This document shows positions 34,415 to 53,582 of a stretch of 64,000 bases of DNA, piece after piece. The position numbers were made by a program, and so were the translations under genes. This DNA comes from Tetmemena sp. SeJ-2015 (taxonomy: Eukaryota; Ciliophora; Spirotrichea; Sporadotrichida; Oxytrichidae), in the NCBI GenBank assembly GCA_027382625.1, contig JAJKFJ010021114.1, positions 62,001-126,000 on the forward strand, written 5' to 3'. The notes under the pieces are model-generated. The model was not told the DNA's origin. It searched no databases and worked only from the letters and a program-made list of their open reading frames with translations. Every line of letters starts with the position of its first letter. The first letter of the stretch is position 1.

Positions 34415-37400
34415 GTTGGATTACTCGTTGTGCTGTAATTAGAACATCTTCTATAGATGTGGCTTGTCTGCATGGTAATCAATAACTTTACCGAAGGGAA
34501 TCTTGACTCCATTGGGGCAGACAAGAGTGTTCTTGTAGCCTGGTCCTCTGCGGCCCATTCCCTTGACGCTGCTGAATGGATAGTCTAGCTTCTCCACTTA
34601 CTCTGAGGTGTAAAGTTCCTTGCTCTTTCCTAGAGCAACTTCACAAAGTAGCATAAGATAGGAGTCTTGCTATTAGTAGCCTCTGTTTGCGTAGCCCAAA
34701 CTCTTTTCAAACATATCTGCGAAGTAGACACCTTTGCCGAACATGTAGCCAGTTACTGGGGCCTCAGGAGGAGCAATACGAAGACCCTAGCTCAAAATAC
34801 CGATGAAGTTAAACATGGCAGATCCGTGGAAGAGTAGGAAATGGTTAGGCACATCCTTGTAAGCTGAGATCATTTCAGCTTCTCCTTTGCGCTGGAACTT
34901 GAAAATGTTAGAAATCTCAAATCCTTCTTAGAAGTTATTATGCCCTTGATTCAGAAACTGAAAATAAAATCATAACGCTAATTAAGATAAGATATATAGA
35001 ATTTTTAATCAATTTTAAAGAAATCTTATAATAGCTACTAAAAAAGAAAAAATTTTAAAAAATTCAATGAGTTAAAATTGGGAAAGAAAAAACAAATAGA
35101 GGGGATGACTAACTCTTGAAATTTATTTTCTTCAATTTAAAAACCCCAGAAAAAATTTTTTAAAATTTTAAAATAATCCCAAAAATTACTTTATTGCAAA
35201 TTTAAAATTTAAAATTTTGGGGTTTTATTTTTTGTTTTTTAATTTAAAAAATAATTTTTCCATTTTTAAAATTTTAAAAGTTTTTAAAAAATTGATTGCT
35301 GTGTCTGGTATTTTCAATGTACTAGTGAATGACCTCAAACTCTCCTGATTCTTTCTCTAAGGGTTCAATCAGCAAGTTGAGTGCGTCGTGCACATAGTCT
35401 ACTGGATTTTGATCTTGCTGCTTATACAGTGCAGCTAATAGCATCTTTGATGCATATTCGATGTTTGTGAGACCCTCGAGCATATCATATTGCTGTTTAA
35501 TCTAATGACCGTAGTTCATAGGAGGAGCAATTTAGTTTTTGTACTGAGAGAGAGGAATGAGTTCATAGTATCTGCTAGACAACTCGCAAATCTTTTCCTT
35601 CACAGCTGCCAATTCATCATAGTTAGCATTAATTCCTTCCTTTGAGATTCTCTGGTCTTCTTCAATGCAACCCTAGATTTCCATGAGGATTTGTCTAGCC
35701 TCGATCAAAGATTCCTTCTTTACTGATGAGAAAGGCATCACATCGGGGTCAAGCCCAAATTGGTTCATTGCCCTTTGGTAACTCATAAGTAATGAGAAAT
35801 AATCCTATCTGTAATTGGGGCAGTTTACATGGTGACGTTAGAAATCTCTTCAAACAGATCAAATACAGGCTGGCTGAGTCTTGATTTAGGGCACTTTTCG
35901 TAATCGAAGGGTTGAAGGTAGTCTTCGAACTTGACTGTGATGTAATTTACTCTGGTGATGTTGTACTTCTTCTTCACTCTTGAGAAGGTGTCTAACTCGT
36001 CAAAGTTATTTCCTCCAGTCTTTGCTTTGAAGATAGTTCTGAACTCCTTCTTTGCTTCTTCCAAATCGTTAAAGGGAGTTCTTTGGTTCATTCCGTTTTC
36101 TCCGATTCTACCATAGCGAGTGAATATTAAAAAGTTCGTAAGTTTAAATTTGAAAACTACATAGAGGTCACGATTGGAATCATGGAGTAGCTGCATTTTG
36201 TAGAACACATAGTCGCCATAGATACCGTTCTTCAAGTCAACTTTAGTAAGATAAACATCCCATGCTTGATCTTTCTCTAAGTCATAGTAGACCTGGTAGG
36301 ATTTCTCAAATTTTCCAGTGGTATCAACAGGAATCTTGAAATCTTATTCCTTTGCTAGTCTCTTTTCCCTTTCTTGGGCATCAAGCATGTAAGCCTCAGA
36401 GTCAGCTTCAAAATCTACTTTACTAAGATCACTTTATAATTTAAATGATTTAGTGAATAATAGGAGCAGGCCAATTCTTGTTGTCAACCTAGGACAGAGA
36501 TCTTTTGAAGACGTTGATATCAAGGTTTTGACCAGTAAGCTTTTAAAGTTCTTTGTTCATCACACCGCTTTCCTGCTCAACTGCGTAGTGAAGAGGAGTT
36601 TTACCATTTGCAATTTACTCAATCTAATAAGATATAGACAATAATTATTGCATCCTTCAAGGTTAGGTTAAATTTGGCATTGCTTAGAAGCTTGAGAATG
36701 CTCACATTCTCATAGGAACCATAACGAAGGGGATTAACAACATAATGAGCTGCAGATCTTCCCGTCACATCTTGGCAGTTAGTATTTGCTTAGAGTGATC
36801 TCTTGTTCTCCAGCAAGATTGTCACTAAATTAATCTCTTCCAAATTAAAATGTGAAGGTAAGGTGTTTACTTTACCATTTCGTTGTTATTCATAACAGCA
36901 TGCATAATTGGATCTCTGCCATCACTATCGCAAATGTTAATCTTCGCTCCATGCTCTATGAGTCCAATTAAATTAGACCTCATGATCTCATTGCCAGGAT
37001 TGAGTCTTATAAGAGTGATAATCGGTGTGGACATATATTTGCCTTCAGGGTTATAATGATGATCTTTTACTTCTTCTTTCTTGAAAGCTGGTTTAAAAGT
37101 TTCCTCTGGGTAAACAATGTTTACATCAGCTCCTGCCTTCACTAAGCAAAGGAAGAAACACAAATATTATAGGAAGATGTTTTGAATCATGAAGTCAGGC
37201 CTGTATACCCATTATTCTAAGGCTTTTCCTTTAAGACAGAGTGCAATAGGAGTGAAGCCCTCATTATCTACCTCATTTGGATTATAAGGAGGATTTTCCA
37301 TTAGTAGTAATTGAACAAGCAAGAGTGACCCTCCGATGACTGCGTAGTGCAAAGCGTTTCTTCCAAACTTATCCTTAGCTCTCAAATTTACTCCTCTTTT

Positions 37401-40400
37401 GCTAAGAGCATCATAAATTCTTTGTAGATGTTCAGCTGAGCAACTTGCAGCATTCATAGATAAAATGTGGAAAAGGTTCTGCCCCTTTGAATTAGTTTGC
37501 TGAACAATCTCATCATTAGGATTCTTGGATAAAAGAGTGAGCACTAGCATGAACTTTTTCTCGTCCATGGCATCTTGCATAGCAAGCATTAAATCGTAGC
37601 CATTATCAAGCATCAAGTAAGCTAAGCCTTGTTAGCCACCTCTGATAGATAATTTGAACATAGAAACTCCTTCCTTGTCACTCGCTTTAATGAGATCTCC
37701 AACTACATCATTCTACTACTACTACTAATTCATCATCCCGTTATTTAAGTTTAAGTTATTGCCAAACATTCCACCTCCAAAGAGACCTCCTCCTGCGAAA
37801 CCTCCAAAATTGTTGTTATATGCAGCTACTTTTTTTCTTGGTGCTTAGTTATAAACAGTCATGCCGAAAGCATTTTGATTATTGAAGACGTTCTCTCTAT
37901 ACTGATCATTATTATAATCTTCGTCTTCTTCATCAGAATCATCATATTCATCATATTCATCTCCATAGTCGGAGTTTGCTTTAGCTTTGAAGAGTTCTCT
38001 GTGCTTCTTCTTCTCCTTCTTTTTGTTGCTCTCTTCCATTTCTACATCAGCAGAAATAAGTCCTCTCTGCTTGCTCTTTCTCAAATGAGCTTCCTTTGCT
38101 TTCTCCTCTTCTTCCCACATCTTTTAAATAAAGGGGGACATGAAACATATCTTCTTGATCCTTTCTGGCTCCTCTCTGAAAGTAAGAGGAAGGACAGATG
38201 CGTTCTTTTGAATGAGGAGGATTGCATAGTTATAATGCTTTCTCATGATTCCAATACCTACAGGAGTGTTCCCATAGATATCCTTATTTTCAAGAGCAGC
38301 TCCTCTTGCAACAAGATAAAGAGCGCAGATTGAAGCTCCTCTCTAAGAGGCATAGTGAAGAGGAGTCTTCATCCATTTATCTGGCACATCGAGCTCTAAT
38401 CCCTTAATTCCGCAGATTGAGGAGACAGTTTCAATAGGATCGATTTGATTGCACTCGTTCCAGTTAGATATCTTAACGAAGGCATAGTGAAGAGGAGTTC
38501 TCTAATGTTGATCTCTCAAGTTTATTTCTACCCCTCTGTCAATCAAGAACTACTCAGTCTCAAATGTTGCATCAGCTGTAGCACTCGACATATATGACAA
38601 AGTTTAAATTGATAGTAGATATTGATAGCGTGATGGAGTAGGTTTCTACCCTTGTTATCAATTTGATTAATATTAGCTCCATGTTAGAGAAGTTCTTCAA
38701 TTCTCGAGTTTTGTCTTCTAATTAGAGCATATTTCAAAGCAAACAATCCACTCTAGTCCATTTGGTTTACATTCGCTCCAAGAGCCAACATCTAATATGC
38801 AACTTCGAATTTCTAGTGATCATAGTAGTTGAGGAATGGAGTTCTTCCCTTAGAATCAGGATAGTCAACCCTCACCTCCAAATCTAGGAGCTTATCGAAA
38901 GCTGTTTAGAACATAGGCTCACCTCTATTAATAAGGTTGTCCTTGCTAAGTTAGTTGAAGGGTGTAACTTCATCATTAGCTTAGATAACTAAATAAGATT
39001 TGAGATATATATCATAGTCTGGCTGGTCGGGTTCAATCTTCATAGATAGCAGGAACTCGAAAAGCTTTTCTTGAGGCTTACTAATAAGCTTAAAGATGTA
39101 TGGGCTTATGATTCTACATTTCTATCGTGAGTACCATACTCTCTAAGGACTTTGACTCCTCCAATGGTGTCATACTTAGCATTGGCATTATTCTCTGAGG
39201 GCTATTGGAGAGCTTACTGTTGCATATTATTGAACATGAATCCTTGATTACCAGCCATGCTTCTTCCTCTTTTGCCCATGCGCATGTTTTTCATTTTTTC
39301 TTCTCTCCTCAGTACCTTTTCCTCTTCCTCTTTCTTCTACTTTGCATTTATTCCCTCTTTATTCATCTATTAATTAAATAGGCTGCTTATTTTAAATATA
39401 GCTTCATCTGCACGAGCATGTTGTTCTTGTTGAACTCTAGATCTCTGTAGTACTTGAGTTTCTAGACTTGCATTTGCACATCAGCTCCTTGAGTTATCAA
39501 GAACTGCAGCATATCGATGAAGGGTAGCACTATAATTTGATTTATGAACTTGCGAGTGAGATCATTCTTCTAATCCTGGCTAAAGCTATGATTGTAATTG
39601 TAGAAGTTATTCTAGTCATGGAACTTATCAAAGATATCCTCATTGGTGATGTTGTATCTTTGGAAATTATTGTTGTGAATGAAGGACTGCTGATTCACGC
39701 GCAGCTAAATCTCCTAGAAAAAGTTCTAGTAGTTATCTGTGAAGGACTTTATGTACCTCAGGAAAGGAGTGAAACCATCATCGTCTAAGATATTCATAGT
39801 CTCCTTGGTTGGAGGGTCATTTTACAGCAAGAATTTCAAAATCTTAGAGTATATATAACTTAGAATAAGCTACATTAAATACAAAAGTAGTTCATGTTAA
39901 ATATCTTGTCCTTGAATGCAAACAGAAGTTCAGGCTCCTTGTTAATCGAAACATTAGCTTTTAAGTGCTCGAGAAGAGGAGAGTTATCACTGTCAAAATT
40001 ATTATAAACATAAATTCTATATAGTCAAGACAAATTGTGAAGGGAGTTCTCTTCTGAGAATCTTTGATAGAGAGATCTGCGCCTTTGTTGATCAGGAGCT
40101 TTGCAACTTGCTTTTGAATCTCCACTTGCTTCAAGTAGAAAGCTTTATTAGGTTTGTTGTCCAAATCATTCTGCCTTGGGATATACTTGGCAATATAGTG
40201 AAGAGAAGTTTGGCCTTCTAGGTCAGCAATGTTTGGATCAGCTCCCTTCTTTAGAAGATAAGAAACGAATTCTTCAGTTTCATCATCAAGCATCATTAAG
40301 GAAAGCATGATGAGGGTTCTTCCCTTATCATCTTTACCATTGACATTAACATTTGGTTCCTCAAGAAGACGCTTTACGCAACCAGTATGACTCTTTAACA

Positions 40401-47372: not shown

Positions 47373-50311
47373 TAAGTGTTGACATACTCCCCAACTAGGA
47401 GATTAAAGTTCAAAAAGGAATCTTCAAGTCAAAGTAATTTAGAACATGATAGATGGGAAGGAATCGAGGAGCTTTCTCCTTTGAATTTTGAGCATACTAA
47501 TTCAAACAATATAATTTGGAGCAGACTTAAAAAGGCACAAACTCAATTGAATCTTAATAACAAAGACTTTCCACCTCCCTAGATAACTCTGCTTGATCCT
47601 ACACTTCTGGAGGATGGTTTGCAAATATATTTTGGTTTTATGATCAAGCAACTACCTCACCTGCAGGAACTTAAGCATCAAGAACGGGAACGGCTGAGTA
47701 CAAATCTAGACAATAGACATTTAGACTACATCCCCCAATTGGAGCTTATAAATCAGTGATATAACTATTGCAATATTATTTTATTCTTATCAGTTAGTTA
47801 AAGAAGCATCATCTTTAAACTCCTATGAATATAAATAAGGGAGGAAGTGGAACTTTTAAGCATAATCAACAATACTTGAATCAAACACCACTCAGCGGTA
47901 ATAAAATAACCTCTTTCTTAAATTGATAGAGCACCAATTCTGCAAACAGGCTGCCGTTTGAACAATTCCACATAGAGGAAGAATTAAAGCCACTCACTGC
48001 AAGACTGAAATAGTCCTATCTCAACATAGCGATAGTAGATCAAATAGATGTGCAAGAGAAGTTGAAAAGTTAAATGGGCGATGATTATAATCAGAAGAGC
48101 TTTCCTCAAAGTGTAACCCATAAGGGCGGCTATATGTCTACAAGAAACAGAGACTCAGAGTATTTACCTGCTTTCCAAATTGATTATCTTTAATTTTGAT
48201 GAAAAACAGGTGGAGATGCAACTCTAGTGCCTTGGTGATGGCTAGCTGCAAAAGTTTCTCTCTAAAAAGTTCTAAAAGCTCGACAAGAGATCACTAGTAA
48301 ATCGACAAAATGGAAATAACCTTGGTGTGGCATCTAAGCAATCTTAAAAGGTACATTAGCGGCCTGACTAGAGAACTTTATTAAGCTAGTTTCAAATGAG
48401 TCAATCGAAGATTCTACAAAAGAGCTCATCATAGTAAAATATGTTCTACTCAACTCGAAATCATTTACTTCTTTTCTTCTCTTTCATATTTAATTTGATG
48501 TCTGATTTAATAGCAAGCAAGAATCAGGAGGCAGAAGCCTAGAGATAGAGCGATGTTTTGAGTGGGGAATTACTCGTTAGATAAAATGAAGTCCTAATGA
48601 AATAATTTGAGAGAGACCTGGAGGAAAGAGCAAAAGAGGCCAACAAGAAAGTGAATCCAGAGCAATAAAGAATAAACTTGATACTTAATCAGCTGCAAAG
48701 AAATAAGACTAATAGCGATCTGCAAGTTAAGAAGTGGATAAACTCTACTCAAGAACCTAAATCTTTAGGCAAGTAACTTTATTCTTTCTTTTTACTTGAG
48801 GAATACTTTAAGAGTGATAATCAATAGCTAACAGAGAAATAGAGCAGCAAGTTGGGTGATATCTGGAATGTTATGCCCAAACCTAAGCATGTAACTACAC
48901 TGGACATAAAGTAGAAGAAAATAAAAGCACTGAAGACTCCCAAGCATAATTACCTGAATGTTAAAACAGAGAGGCAGCTGATAAATGAAGATGAGGAAGT
49001 TATGTGGAGCAGCAATGGCCTTGTTGCCTCTTAAACACTTAAGAAAACATCTAGTATGACCAAGCTAGTTTTCAATCCCAAAACTGGCAAGCTTGAGGAA
49101 AAGTCTTAACAAATCTAGTAAGACAACCAGAAGCAAAGATAAAGGACTCTAAGCTAGAAACAGCCACTAAGGAAGACCACTACCAACTTGTGTTTTTTAC
49201 TTATTATAAATTGCCAGCAATAAAAAGAGAACTTCTCAAAAAGAAAAATGAGTTAATAGCTGACCCACTCCAAAAATTTAAAGAACCATATATTTTAATA
49301 AATAAGCAGTAGACGGGAGAGAAGAGTTGTCAGTGCAACTTTTCAAATCCAAGTTGAAGAAGGGCTTGCTTAAAAAAGATTGGATACAAGATAAAAGGAA
49401 GAAATGACAATGAAAGAGCAGAGATTTTAGAAAGCGAAGGAGGAAAACTATCTTCGCTAAGTTGAAGAGCTTGAAAACCAAAGAGAGGCAAAAAAATAGA
49501 GGCAACAAAACTGATATTAAAAATCCAGACGAGGTTTATGATAGTATTTCCGATTAAGAGAGCAATTAAAGTATTAATCTTGAAGGGCATGAAAGCAATT
49601 TAAGAATAAAAATCTAAGCCATCAAAAAATAACCTCATCTTACAAAGTAAGAAAAGAATGATAACTACTAGAGGCTTATTACTGGTTTATTTAACTTTGA
49701 GCAATAGTAAATAGCGAAGAAGCCGCCTCTAGTTGTGCATAATGAGCAGCCTAGGAACACTAGGTGCCAACATTTATGAGGAAAGCCTTGAAGCATAAAC
49801 TGGAACAAGTGAGTGTAAATATCATGAAAGACACCGTCCAAACTGTTATTAAGAATTTGCAAGAGAAATAAGATCACTTTGAAAAGATTGTTTAAATTTA
49901 TGTAATTATCATAAAAATTAAGCTGAATGACTTGTGCTCAATCATATAGAAGTGCGAGGAAAATAATTTTAAGAATGTTAAAGAAGAGAAGGGCTCGACT
50001 GCAAGGACACTTATGAAGACTGAGTTAGTTAAGAAAATAAATGAGAATGTGGAATAGAAAATGATCCAGCTTATAAACAATAAGATTGAAGAGAGAAACT
50101 ATATCAAGATGTTCACTTAAAAATTTATATTTTAATTAGCAAAATAAATTACAAGTCGATTGCAGGACACCATTAATTTAATTTAAATTTATGAAAGTGT
50201 TATGTATTTCTTAATTATTTTTAAATATCAATATTACTATTTTAAATAATTTATATAGAGGACATTAACATTCCTGTAAAAAAGATTGAGAAGACGAGAC
50301 TTAATGAGTGA
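47373..50311 (+). CDS. coiled-coil hypothetical protein, several MDS/exons
   Basis: Starting just after the helicase MDS 1, plus-strand pieces encode RRLKFKKESSSQSNLEHDRW..., LPHLQELKHQERERLSTNLD, then (47820-48200) FEQFHIEEELKPLTARLKQS. A helical block (48530-49150) contains VLMKQFERDLEERAKEANKK. The C-terminal part (49790-50110) is coiled coil (LKHKLEQVSVNIMKDTVQTV). The last exon ends INIPVKKIEKTRLNE at TGA 50309-50311. AT-rich gaps at 47750, 47910, 48420-48500, 49240-49330 and 50120-50260 are introns or IESs. The true N-terminus is not evident. No family recognised. Confidence 0.5.
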
Positions 50312-50399
50312 GTGAGAGTATATGAAATAATATGAGTTTAATTTAAATAGGGCATTAATTTCTTCTAGTATGAACAATTAAAGTCTGCTGTGTGTGTTG

Positions 50400-51017
50400 A
50401 CTCATTTAGTCATCTTTGAGACAGGGTCTAATTTCTAATAAGGAGTGAGACTTCCCTTAGGTGCGTTGAGTTAGCTGTTAGTTAATTGACTCTAGCATTT
50501 CTGGATTCATGGTGATCTGCTTGGGAACTCTATCGCTTTCTCCAATCTTTGGAGTTGAAAATGCCACATAGGGTTTGAGCTAAAAAGAGAGTTTAGAACA
50601 TAACAATAATCGACAATGATTTCTTACCTTGAAGCCAGTAAGATCAGGGACGTTGTAGACAGGCACTTTTGAAATATCGAAGATGAATCCTCCCTTGCGA
50701 GTAGATCTTCCAAAGGGTCTTTCGAGTTTCTCTGGACATCTCTGATTTTAAGTTGACCTTTGTAGCCCTATTTTTTGTACTGCTCTTTTTAGTAAAGAGG
50801 CATGGCGTGGGGGTTCTTGAACTTGCTGCTCTTGGTGAGTTTGTAAGAGTACATTCCAAGTCGCTTTCTGAAGACTGAAAATCCAAACACTTGTTGATAG
50901 AGCAGCTAGCTCCCTATGTTTTGGGAAAGGAGCACTTGATTGGTGAGGGTGGGTTGAGTGAGGGAGGCAGAGTGCATAAAAGTTTGGGACTACCTCATAA
51001 TTATCTTTTGCATCATT
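50400..51017 (-). CDS. MRPL41: mitochondrial large-subunit ribosomal protein mL41
   Basis: ATG at 51017 begins MMQKIIMRQSQTFMHSASLT, a plausible mitochondrial presequence. The core reads KGGFIFDISKVPVYNVPDLT GFK, intron 50580-50627 (48 nt), LKPYVAFSTPKIGESDRVPK. The VPDLTGFKLKPYV block is the signature of mL41. The reading frame then runs ...NPEMLESINQQLTQ without a TGA well past the likely end, so the last coding segment is probably terminated by an MDS boundary or lies elsewhere; the lower coordinate is approximate. Confidence 0.85.
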
Positions 51018-51130
51018 TTTATAAATATTTATAATTCACAAGTCTATTACCCTGCTAGTTCATTCTCACTTAGTGCAGATAATAAATTGAATTAGATTGA
51101 TAATAAATTAATAATTATTTAGAAAGAGAA

Positions 51131-51270: not shown

Positions 51271-51471
51271 CTATTGTAGTATCAGCATTGATTTAGCGAA
51301 ATTTTTAAAATTACGTTGACTGGCGGTTGCCTCTACATGATCATCTTTCCGGCTGTGGCTGCTCAAATGCGTGGCAGTTGACTTGTCTGGCTTCAAATCT
51401 CTGTGAACTATATTTAATTTAAACCGGTATTCAATTAAAAGTACACTATAATTAAATTTATCAAGCGCCAT
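51271..51471 (-). CDS. kinase-loop ORF in left inverted repeat
   Basis: The outward-facing frame begins MALDKFNYSVLLIEYRFKLN and includes IVHRDLKPDK, the catalytic-loop signature of Ser/Thr protein kinases with Lys where Asn is usual. Only this small part of a kinase fold is present (about 60 codons), so it cannot be an active kinase. It is either a captured host fragment or a convergent sequence. The copy in the right repeat is almost identical. Confidence 0.45.
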   Translation of the reverse strand: MALDKFNYSVLLIEYRFKLNIVHRDLKPDKSTATHLSSHSRKDDHVEATASQRNFKNFAKSMLILQ

Positions 51472-51689
51472 TTAAAAACATTTGACTAATCGACTAATGG
51501 ACTAATGGACTAATGGACTAAACGACTAAACGATTAATTTAGTAAAAATCTGAGAGTTTAGATTTAGATTACTAAGACATTGGTAGACTGGCTCGAGAAA
51601 ATAAGGTGTAAAAATTAGTCAATTAGTCCGTTTTTGGGCAAGAATGAAATGGAATTAATTTATTAGGGCATGAATTAAACTTAATCTCT
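51272..51689 (+). repeat. left terminal inverted repeat
   Basis: 418 bp matching 53168-53582 in reverse complement. It contains an outward-facing ORF with a kinase catalytic-loop motif, an 8-bp iteron array at 51484-51538 and two inverted iteron copies at about 51617-51632. High identity between the two repeats implies recent insertion or gene conversion. Confidence 0.9.
51484..51538 (+). repeat. 8-bp iteron array, left
   Basis: Six to seven tandem units of the type GACTAATC / GACTAATG / GACTAAAC in register every 8 bp. Two inverted copies of the same core occur at about 51617-51632. Iterons near the ends are the usual binding sites of Rep initiators. Confidence 0.7.
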
Positions 51690-51752
51690 GGTTGAATATT
51701 TAGAGATATCTTAAAAGAATACTCCTTGATTAAACTGTTATAATTTTAAGCA

Positions 51753-53111
51753 ATGGAATCGCGCAACTCTTCATTGGGAGACAAAGGCAGCTCATTTATG
51801 CGGAAAGCATTCTTCTTGGCGCTCACCGTAGGCATTTCAAAAGATCAAGCTGCCAAGGTGGAGCGGGACTTGCAGAAAAGATTTCCTGACGTTGAGGAGG
51901 TGTCCGTCTTTGAGACCCAGAAGGACTAGGCGCAATATATGGCAATATTCCTCAGGACGAACACATTTGGCCGCAACAAGCAGTACTTCAATAACCCCAA
52001 TTACTGCGGCAAATAGTTCCTGGACAAGTCCGGCTTGGAATCAAAGGCGATCAGACGGAGCAATCTTACCCAGGCTATAAAATAAATCAGGCCCGTCAGC
52101 ATTTACACAGGATCGCTCCAAAGATTGCTAGAGGCCCTCAAAATTAGCCCCACTGAGCAAAGAATTCCGGGAAGAGTGAAGCTTGATGAAGAGCTGATGG
52201 AAGGAGACCCAGTCGTCTAGAAGGTGATCGAGCTCATCAGGTCAGGCAGAGTGCAGAGCTTCCAGGATCTCTTCAATCAGAACTAAGACAATGCTGTGAT
52301 GTGCGAGATGCTCACGGATGGAAAGAAAAAGCTGGAGACCTTATTTAAGCTCTACAGGAACGCGGGCGCGATACCAGAGCCAAACCTGTCTCACATCGAG
52401 GAGCTGCTCTCCTATCTATAGAGAATGAGATTAGTCCGTGGCAAAGATAAATAAGGCAGCTCGATTTCGGCAGAGATTGTTCAGGAGTACTAGCTGCAAG
52501 AGGCTCTAGACGCTCTGTATGAGGTGATAGTAAAGCAGAGCAATTCAAAGATGAAGTGTGTTTGGCTGCATGGAGAAAACGGCACCGGGAAAAGTACTTT
52601 GGCAGGCCTGATGGCGAAAATCTTCTCGTCAGAAATATTGGAAGAGGTTGCCGAAAGCTTTGCTTTAGATCAGAGAAAAACTGGCTTACCGCCTACTTTG
52701 GTCATCCTGGATGAAGTGAACTCTCCTGTCTTCTTCGGACACAAAGGGATAGCGAAGATGAAGAGATTCCTTGAGGGGAAAGGGTTTGTGGTCAATGTGA
52801 AGCATGGAGACGCAGATAAAAGATACCTGAACTGCTCGGTTATGGTGACATCAAATAAGACGCCACTGAAGAAAATGGATGAGCTAGATCGAGGAGCATT
52901 TCTGGCAAGGGTCAAATTTGTGGAAATGCGCAGGCGCGCAGGATACGTAGCCAAAGAATTCCCGTTTGCCGCAGATGAGCTGGCATAATACTTTGAGGAA
53001 AGATTGATCATGGAACGGCTCATTCATGGCCAAGGTGGCCTAGACGAAGATGAGCTTGCGGATACTAACACCTAAGATATGACAGAAGTGAATGAAGGGC
53101 ACTTTGCCTGA
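51753..53111 (+). CDS. Rep-like superfamily 3 helicase, ciliate code
   Basis: ATG 51753 to TGA 53109-53111, 452 residues, no introns or IESs. The C-terminal half is an SF3 AAA+ helicase: Walker A GENGTGKS (residues 274-281), Walker B LVILDEV (316-322) and motif C SVMVTSNK (362-369), in the order and spacing of viral and plasmid Rep proteins. The N-terminus looks like a Rep endonuclease domain with motif I-like FFLALT (20-25). A stretch aligned by eye with the HUH motif reads AQYMAIFLRT (60-69), so the metal-binding histidines appear to be missing. No clear YxxK nickase motif follows. Predicted role: replication initiator/helicase of the element. It could be nickase-defective, or use an unrecognised catalytic site. 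TAA/TAG are read as Gln throughout; TGA is the stop. Confidence 0.88.
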
Positions 53112-53167
53112 TTGCTTTGGATGAAAGCAGAGCGTATAATGCACATTTAAGCTTATAAGTTATTTCT

Positions 53168-53582
53168 AGAGATTAAGTTTAATTCATGCCCTAATAAATT
53201 AATTCCATTTCATTCTTGCCCAAAAACGGACTAATTGACTAATTTTTACACCTTATTTTCTCGAGCCAGTCTACCAATGTCTTAGTAATCTAAATCTAAA
53301 CTCTCAGATTTTTACTAAATTAATCGTTTAGTCGTTTAGTCCATTAGTCCATTAGTCCATTAGTCGATTAGTCAAATGTTTTTAAATGGCGCTTGATAAA
53401 TTTAATTATAGTGTACTTTTAATTGAATACCGGTTTAAATTAAATATAGTTCACAGAGATTTGAAGCCAGACAAGTCAACTGCCACGCATTTGAGCAGCC
53501 ACAGCCGGAAAGATGATCATGTAGAGGCAACCGCCAGTCAACGTAAAAAAAATTTCGCTAAATCAATGCTGATACTACAATA
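53168..53582 (-). repeat. right terminal inverted repeat
   Basis: Reverse-complement partner of 51272-51689, with its own iteron array at about 53321-53373 and a plus-strand copy of the kinase-loop ORF at 53386-53595. Confidence 0.9.

Follow-up and report, generated by a model that had tools for sequence, protein, structure and literature searches.

Transposon classes are defined by the enzyme responsible for cutting and joining DNA, and transposons with a replication-type protein, the Helitrons and Replitrons, carry an HUH nuclease. Among viruses, parvovirus NS1, papillomavirus E1 and polyomavirus T antigen are SF3 helicases that work on short repeated sites, in parvoviruses together with terminal repeats. 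Systems with D5/P4-type helicases, polinton-like viruses and Tlr elements, the last with long terminal repeats, are far larger and hold many genes. In ciliates, TBE and Tec are germline elements with terminal inverted repeats, and Tec inserts at TA. The relevant part of one account gives both TBE (Oxytricha) and Tec (Euplotes) three ORFs, one of them a Tc1/mariner transposase (PMC9797194). For Blepharisma, the sections of a second account that treat its germline describe IESs that are mostly TA-bound and a few transposase-bearing Bogo copies beside thousands of copies without a transposase, the BogoMITEs, which are read there as deletion copies of a Pogo transposon (PMC9942856). Here we describe a ciliate family that is abundant and mobile yet keeps a replication helicase and no recognisable cutting or joining enzyme. 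The family is apparently undescribed: we found no earlier account of such an element in the open-access literature, subscription journals, most preprints and repeat libraries lying outside the scope of that search.

Architecture of the element

The element occupies positions 51272-53582 of the window, i.e., of the whole 64,000-nucleotide stretch of Tetmemena DNA analysed, and comprises in 2.3 kb two inverted arms flanking one 452-aa gene. A preliminary description had placed inverted repeats of 415-418 bp at these positions, and its coordinates were right: the left arm (51272..51689, + strand, 418 nt) and the right arm (53168..53582, − strand, 415 nt), as delimited by arm pairing, contain perfect blocks of 379 nt and 35 nt and are 99.04% complementary when taken as a single 418-nt pairing. 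At either extremity stands a TA (51272..51273 and 53581..53582), and the two are presumed to be the copies of a 2-bp target duplication on the basis of TA statistics for 30 elements and of a sister element read at base level. Inside them lie a class-A outer end module (51274..51301, + strand, and 53553..53580, − strand), which corresponds to C2193:113274-113301 with 0 mismatches on the left and to C2193:115553-115580 on the right, and a subterminal box, ATGCGTGGCAGTTGAC, located by motif scan (51367..51382, + strand, and 53475..53490, − strand). The arms also hold the iterons reported earlier: six direct 8-bp steps of the GACTAATN type (51484..51531, + strand), mirrored by an array in the right arm (53325..53373, − strand), and an inverted iteron pair in each arm (51614..51629, − strand, on the left; 53228..53243, + strand, on the right).

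Between the arms, an SF3 initiator-like helicase gene was predicted from its ORF and Pfam matches (51753..53111, + strand; 452 aa, uninterrupted in code 6). As had been proposed, the frame is open only with TAA and TAG read as Gln, including 10 such codons before a TGA stop, and the gene is GC-richer than its surroundings, at 47.5% (57.6% at third positions) compared to 34.6% for the window. A family alignment places Walker A (GENGTGKS) at 52572..52595, Walker B (LVILDEVN) at 52698..52721 and VMVTSN, which we take to be SF3 motif C, at 52839..52856, all on the + strand. An ORF scan returned no further frame above 156 aa anywhere in the element, which is too little space for a transposase of ordinary length, in agreement with the initial observation that none lies inside; with the 452-aa frame as the sole ORF of size, the element likewise has no capsid, polymerase or integrase gene. 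Elsewhere in the window, the frame adjoining the element (49938-51035, − strand) matches mitochondrial ribosomal protein L27 (PF09809, 8.6e-6), and a frame at 36822-38657 (− strand) encodes an ankyrin-repeat protein (Ank_2, 1.4e-25).

A large family with three classes of outer ends

The window element is one copy of a large mobile DNA family. Across the 146 Mb and 5213 contigs of the same genome, a 429-base left-arm query returned 41 hits at ≥72% identity, two of them being the arms of the element itself, and many of the hits form inverted pairs. The protein gave at least 97 matches on at least 83 contigs, its own included, with identities ranging from 98 to 28%; these counts are a lower bound from 93 scored candidates out of 458, and two contig pairs with identical scores (C1787/C3586 and C2025/C3150) may each be one locus. 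The number of arm matches, many in inverted pairs, and of protein matches across contigs excludes chance. The spread of the protein over 83 contigs also rules out a single-copy gene; the preliminary description had named a single-copy locus present in the macronucleus as an argument against a mobile element. Among the matches listed, C4A4 repeats stand at the first base of nine contigs, and together with the genetic code they point to a hypotrich-type spirotrich; this telomere pattern is identical when reversed, and its reversed control is uninformative.

We delimited elements at the best matches and at 20 divergent ones, a sample whose proportions are not genome-wide. Size, arms, iterons and subterminal box were evaluated on 34 helicase elements, with three gene-less ones added except for size, and the 34 helicase elements with both ends measured 2166-2395 bp. 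Outer ends fall into classes A, B and C, in which TA is followed by TTGTAGTATC, TTCTAACAATC and TAGGATGAATAC, respectively, and each delimited element carries the same class on both arms. With ≤2 mismatches allowed, 81 class-A, 559 class-B and 215 class-C ends (total 855) were detected genome-wide, against 0 for each reversed pattern. Arm, protein and end matches alike thus bear out the prediction of many copies with the same ends.

Insertion at TA

Elements of the family insert at TA. For the 30 elements with both ends matching listed 12-mers, TA, which is no part of the 12-mers themselves, flanks the left end in 29 cases and the right end in 27, and no target duplication longer than TA was detected (mean best match of 3.7 vs 3.37 in mismatched flanks). 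The flanks of 14 elements were then joined with one TA and used as single queries, with 40 of 961 candidates scored. Uninterrupted sites at 90-100% identity were recovered for seven of the 14: L037 in C505 (100%, 180/180), L046 in C280, L011 in C4245, L052 in C849, L035 in C502, L058 in C3822 and L026 in C1662. The queries from the remaining seven elements, which include the one in the window, matched solely their own or partial flanks within the 40 of 961 candidates scored. The contigs with empty sites may be allelic, paralogous or somatic. L037/L076, the one case among the seven read base by base (462 and 457 aligned flank bases, 99.8 and 95.6% identity), shows that filled and empty sites differ by the element plus one TA, i.e., a 2-bp TA duplication, and these sites together bear out the suspected mobility.

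Such precise insertion with target duplication fits a transposon and speaks against a circular Rep-encoding replicon, domesticated or endogenised, which had been put forward as the possible origin of the element. Given also that there is no second gene of size and that HUH residues are absent from 21 family members (see below), we reject a circular Rep replicon with an HUH nuclease.

Insertions also occur within the family. A 1.1-kb class-B element (L050, 4037-5162) has inserted into the right arm of a helicase-bearing element; judged against the intact but diverged left arm, its insertion fits a single TA beforehand, and no helicase-like frame was noticed in it when frames were read by eye. 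Separately, the left flank of L041 and the right flank of L056 cross-match at 80%, i.e., both adjoin related sequence, and the two elements may share a target repeat.

Iterons, end swaps and arm homogenisation

Over lags of 4-20, 8 bp was the strongest period in 29 of 37 elements, compared to 54 of 740 shuffles, while the top period was another one in the remaining 8 of 37. Iteron arrays lie ~190-265 bp from the element end and, in many elements, an inverted copy lies ~100-170 bp further in. In a common frame the motif reads ATGGACTA in the window's group and TTGGAATA, TTGGAACA, TTGGTACA or TTGGTGGA (other strand) elsewhere. The subterminal box GCGTGGCAGTT recurred with ≤2 mismatches in 22 of 37 elements vs 1 of 37 shuffles, mostly ~83 or 104 bp from the end.

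To compare these features with the history of the protein, we used a protein tree for which 34 open frames were taken, each ended at TGA with no readthrough. Label changes were counted on 25 of the 34 rows, leaving out L015, L034, L036, L044 and L046-L050, which had no end label or clear iteron class (L046 and L047 have arrays, outside the seven iteron classes). With iteron labels assigned by eye (L021 being grouped with GGAAC) and the mixed end of L012 counted as B, iteron class required 6 changes, the minimum for 7 states (shuffled mean 15.8), while end class required 7 changes for 3 states, for which the minimum is 2 (shuffled mean 12.0). For iteron class and end class alike, 0 of 500 shuffles were as low as observed. 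Since no shuffle reached the end-class value, ends share some history with the tree, and swaps are frequent but not free. Among close relatives, ends differ between L012 and L011/L013, L015 and L017, L024 and L025/L035, L030 and L032, and L036/L037 and L026/L029, i.e., outer ends were swapped while the protein remained nearly unchanged. Overall, iterons track the helicase lineage more closely than ends do.

The two arms of long-arm elements resemble each other more than they resemble the arms of other elements: the own partner was the best match for 57 of 60 arms, with a median identity of 99.4% vs 93.6% to other elements. For seven short-arm elements (the class-C clade, with L040 bearing a variant end), the own partner was the best match for 0 of 14 arms. 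Three long-arm elements have class-C-like ends. The arms of two of them, L015 and L032, are only 89 and 83% alike, vs 99% in their sisters L017 and L030, and those of the third, L044, are 97% alike; the arms of L032 differ more than do synonymous sites between L032 and L030 (0.128). Based on the unlike arms of L015 and L032, few cases as these are, the arm-equalising process may depend on end class. Gene conversion alone could make arms alike without special replication.

A predicted SF3 helicase with a putatively non-catalytic N-terminus

When compared to Pfam, the window protein matched DUF5906 (9.6e-9, above the cut-off) and Parvo_NS1 (6.5e-4, just under the cut-off). Across 21 family members and at E up to 0.1, DUF5906 was matched by 20 (best 9.6e-9), Parvo_NS1 by 14 (best 4.8e-4) and PPV_E1_C of papillomavirus E1 by 7, while general P-loop families also matched weakly and about as often as Parvo_NS1 (NPHP3_N, 14 of 21). 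A phage primase-helicase profile matched the window protein at 4.2e-10 and 19 of the 21 members, the P4 primase C-terminus matched 6 of 21 (best 1.7e-5, far under its cut-off), and in a profile comparison with six plasmid Reps the helicase part alone aligned (probability 93.8). These matches support a D5/NS1-like SF3 helicase domain with Walker A, Walker B and motif C, whose activity is predicted. The initial label of a Rep-like SF3 helicase accordingly keeps its SF3 part and loses the other, no HUH Rep nuclease having been seen. A cellular helicase, the other outcome that the preliminary description had set against a mobile element, is rejected, the nearest profiles being viral, phage or plasmid helicases, though general P-loop families also match, if weakly.

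The protein database returned no related protein with the window protein, 21 relatives or a stop-poor helicase core (the 7999 candidates sharing most words being scored for the window protein and for the 21 relatives), and a sequence search gave no relative in viral contigs or phages. Plasmids yielded two weak matches (E 0.1 and 0.6), and among solved structures P-loop proteins were matched weakly, with E of 0.24 and 0.0024 at best. In genome contigs, the helicase core found matches at 29-44% identity in three stretches of bacterial DNA, with E of 3e-5 to 6e-5 as judged against candidate stretches only. A single-sequence AlphaFold model was too poor for use (mean pLDDT 37.8).

The helicase gene is under purifying selection. 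This is based on the five deepest of 19 pairs, those with synonymous divergence over 0.7, in which dN/dS was 0.11-0.17. The ratio was 0.25-0.56 in twelve closer pairs and 0.73 and 0.93 in two recent class-C pairs, the 19 pairs having members in common.

We then evaluated whether the N-terminus resembles a nuclease. Within residues 1-150, HxH is absent in 21 of 21 members, no His, Asp or Glu is kept at ≥80% (in columns filled in ≥18 of 21 members), and the kept polar positions are Tyr62, Ser/Asn75, Lys76, Tyr78, Tyr84 and Lys110; a profile of this region did not match the nuclease parts of plasmid Reps (probability 0.1). We read residues 1-150 as a putative DNA-binding domain without catalysis, for which papillomavirus E1 and polyomavirus T antigen provide models. 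Alternatively, the protein could itself be the transposase, its N-terminus being a diverged nuclease, either HUH-like or new, and the element moving as parvoviruses or Replitrons do. In favour of this, the element has no gene but the helicase, which selection maintains across a large family, all 21 members share Tyr78 and Tyr84, and the best part of the structural model, residues 20-63, forms a strand-helix-strand (pLDDT ~55-62, too weak to rely on). However, we consider this unlikely given the missing HxH, the lack of conserved acidic or His residues and the failed nuclease comparison, and given the exchange of ends around a protein that hardly changes.

A cutting enzyme probably supplied in trans

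With no recognisable cutting domain in the encoded helicase, the cutting enzyme is probably supplied from elsewhere. No DDE transposase was detected in the window element (ORFs and Pfam) or in the 21 members (Pfam, first 25 of 32 families), while DDE_3 matches are abundant genome-wide (921 candidates, 150 scored). Among the 150 DDE_3 places and the 281 of 855 ends listed, the nearest DDE_3 place lies 4095 bp from an end, and no transposase with class A-C ends was found.

A transposase had also been expected between the end pairs spaced 1.1-1.4 kb apart, but no such gene was seen when frames were read by eye in L069-L071 or in the element nested in L050, all of which have the appearance of foldback DNA. 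The three elements L069, L070 and L071, 1.2-1.3 kb in length, carry class A or B ends, lack the helicase and have an arm identity of 97.6-100%. Their iterons, of the TTAGACTATTGGAACA type, scored weakly in the 8-bp scan (lag-8 scores of 15, 16 and 11), with a wider unit spacing by eye, and look by eye like the array that precedes the helicase gene of L021; from this resemblance, the helicase may be able to act on copies other than its own. L072 is a decayed and L075 a deleted helicase copy. Two further loci, L073 (C1802:40900-42830) and L074 (C1252:5835-6975), have class-C ends, TIRs of ~53-64 bp and unrelated interiors, in both of which GGTGCGAATTGGCGAGGT-like repeats can be made out by eye; none of four L073 frames matched Pfam at 0.01.

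These data bear on a second alternative, in which the elements are ordinary Tc1/mariner MITEs that captured a viral helicase as a passenger with no role in movement. Insertion at TA, plentiful DDE_3 matches and gene-less elements with the same ends would all be expected from such MITEs. Yet the absence of coding capacity that defines MITEs and foldback elements fits only L069-L071, other copies holding open frames under purifying selection in the five deep pairs; gene-less elements have retained their iterons, iterons correspond to helicase lineages, and no transposase gene lies near the ends (150 of 921 DDE_3 candidates, 281 of 855 ends). Hence, we judge a passenger helicase improbable.

Taken together, we lean towards a TA-inserting family that has an SF3 initiator-type helicase as its sole encoded protein, copies itself via its iterons and is cut by a transposase acting in trans. 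Specifically, the N-terminal domain would bind the arm iterons, and the SF3 ring would melt the AT-rich arm and drive element copying. Through single-stranded or folded-back intermediates, one arm could serve as template for rewriting its partner. The outer ends would be cut and joined to TA by a transposase whose gene lies elsewhere, a Tc1/mariner-like enzyme being the obvious candidate. The helicase would thus be a replication module riding on interchangeable transposase ends. More tentatively, and with slightly greater doubt than assurance, we propose that the family could represent a new superfamily of nuclease-free initiator-helicase transposons, in which the replication module moves between interchangeable transposase-specific ends and arms are rewritten from each other. 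Because short-arm class-C elements showed no arm homogenisation (0 of 14) and dN/dS of 0.73 and 0.93 in two recent pairs, the model may not cover them.

The two remaining alternatives fit the data less well. Repeated integration of a virus or satellite of CRESS, parvo or polinton type, now endogenised, would account for an SF3 domain of viral or phage type and for long iteron-bearing arms, which recall viral terminal repeats, but is very unlikely considering the lack of a second frame above 156 aa in the window element, the narrow sizes of the 34 elements (2166-2395 bp), the TA duplication and the absence of relatives among viral contigs and phages. Least probable of all is a transposase regulator like IstB or TnsC rather than a replication helicase: AAA+ ATPases are described as partners of DDE transposases in the relevant part of one source (PMC11208146) and the window protein has a weak TniB match (E 0.0016), but DUF5906 and primase-helicase profiles fit it better than TniB or IstB does, SF3 motif C is present, and the iterons point to an origin-binding role.

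If the reading as a new superfamily of nuclease-free transposons is true, the element would be a replicon with its cutting and joining outsourced. The family separates copying from cutting in a testable form, offers helicase-iteron pairs that diverged within one genome, and comes with natural controls in its gene-less copies, swapped ends and short-arm clade. As a concrete origin of TA-bounded insertions in apparent spirotrich germline DNA, the family also bears on the provenance of eliminated sequences.

Comparison with known systems

The parvovirus NS1/ITR system, papillomavirus E1 and polyomavirus T antigen share with this family an SF3 helicase with short repeated sites, and parvoviruses terminal repeats as well, whereas the family has no HUH residues, a single gene, TA insertion and three swappable end classes. 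For CRESS-type plasmid Reps (phytoplasma, Lactococcus, Leptotrichia and others), the likeness lies in the helicase domain, which aligns at the probability given above, and their N-terminal HUH domain does not align with the family. D5/P4-type primase-helicases (DUF5906) are among the nearest helicase profiles to the window protein. Unlike polinton-like viruses and Tlr elements, the window element is one 452-aa gene in 2.3 kb, and unlike Helitrons and Replitrons, the family has inverted arms and a TA duplication, with no HUH seen. Compared to Bogo and BogoMITEs, its gene-bearing copies carry a helicase under selection. TBE and Tec resemble the family in their terminal inverted repeats and, for Tec, in insertion at TA. 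The preliminary description had considered the architecture unlike that of TBE/Tec elements, LINEs or Helitrons, and this view holds: where TBE and Tec bring a transposase, the family brings an SF3 helicase alone.
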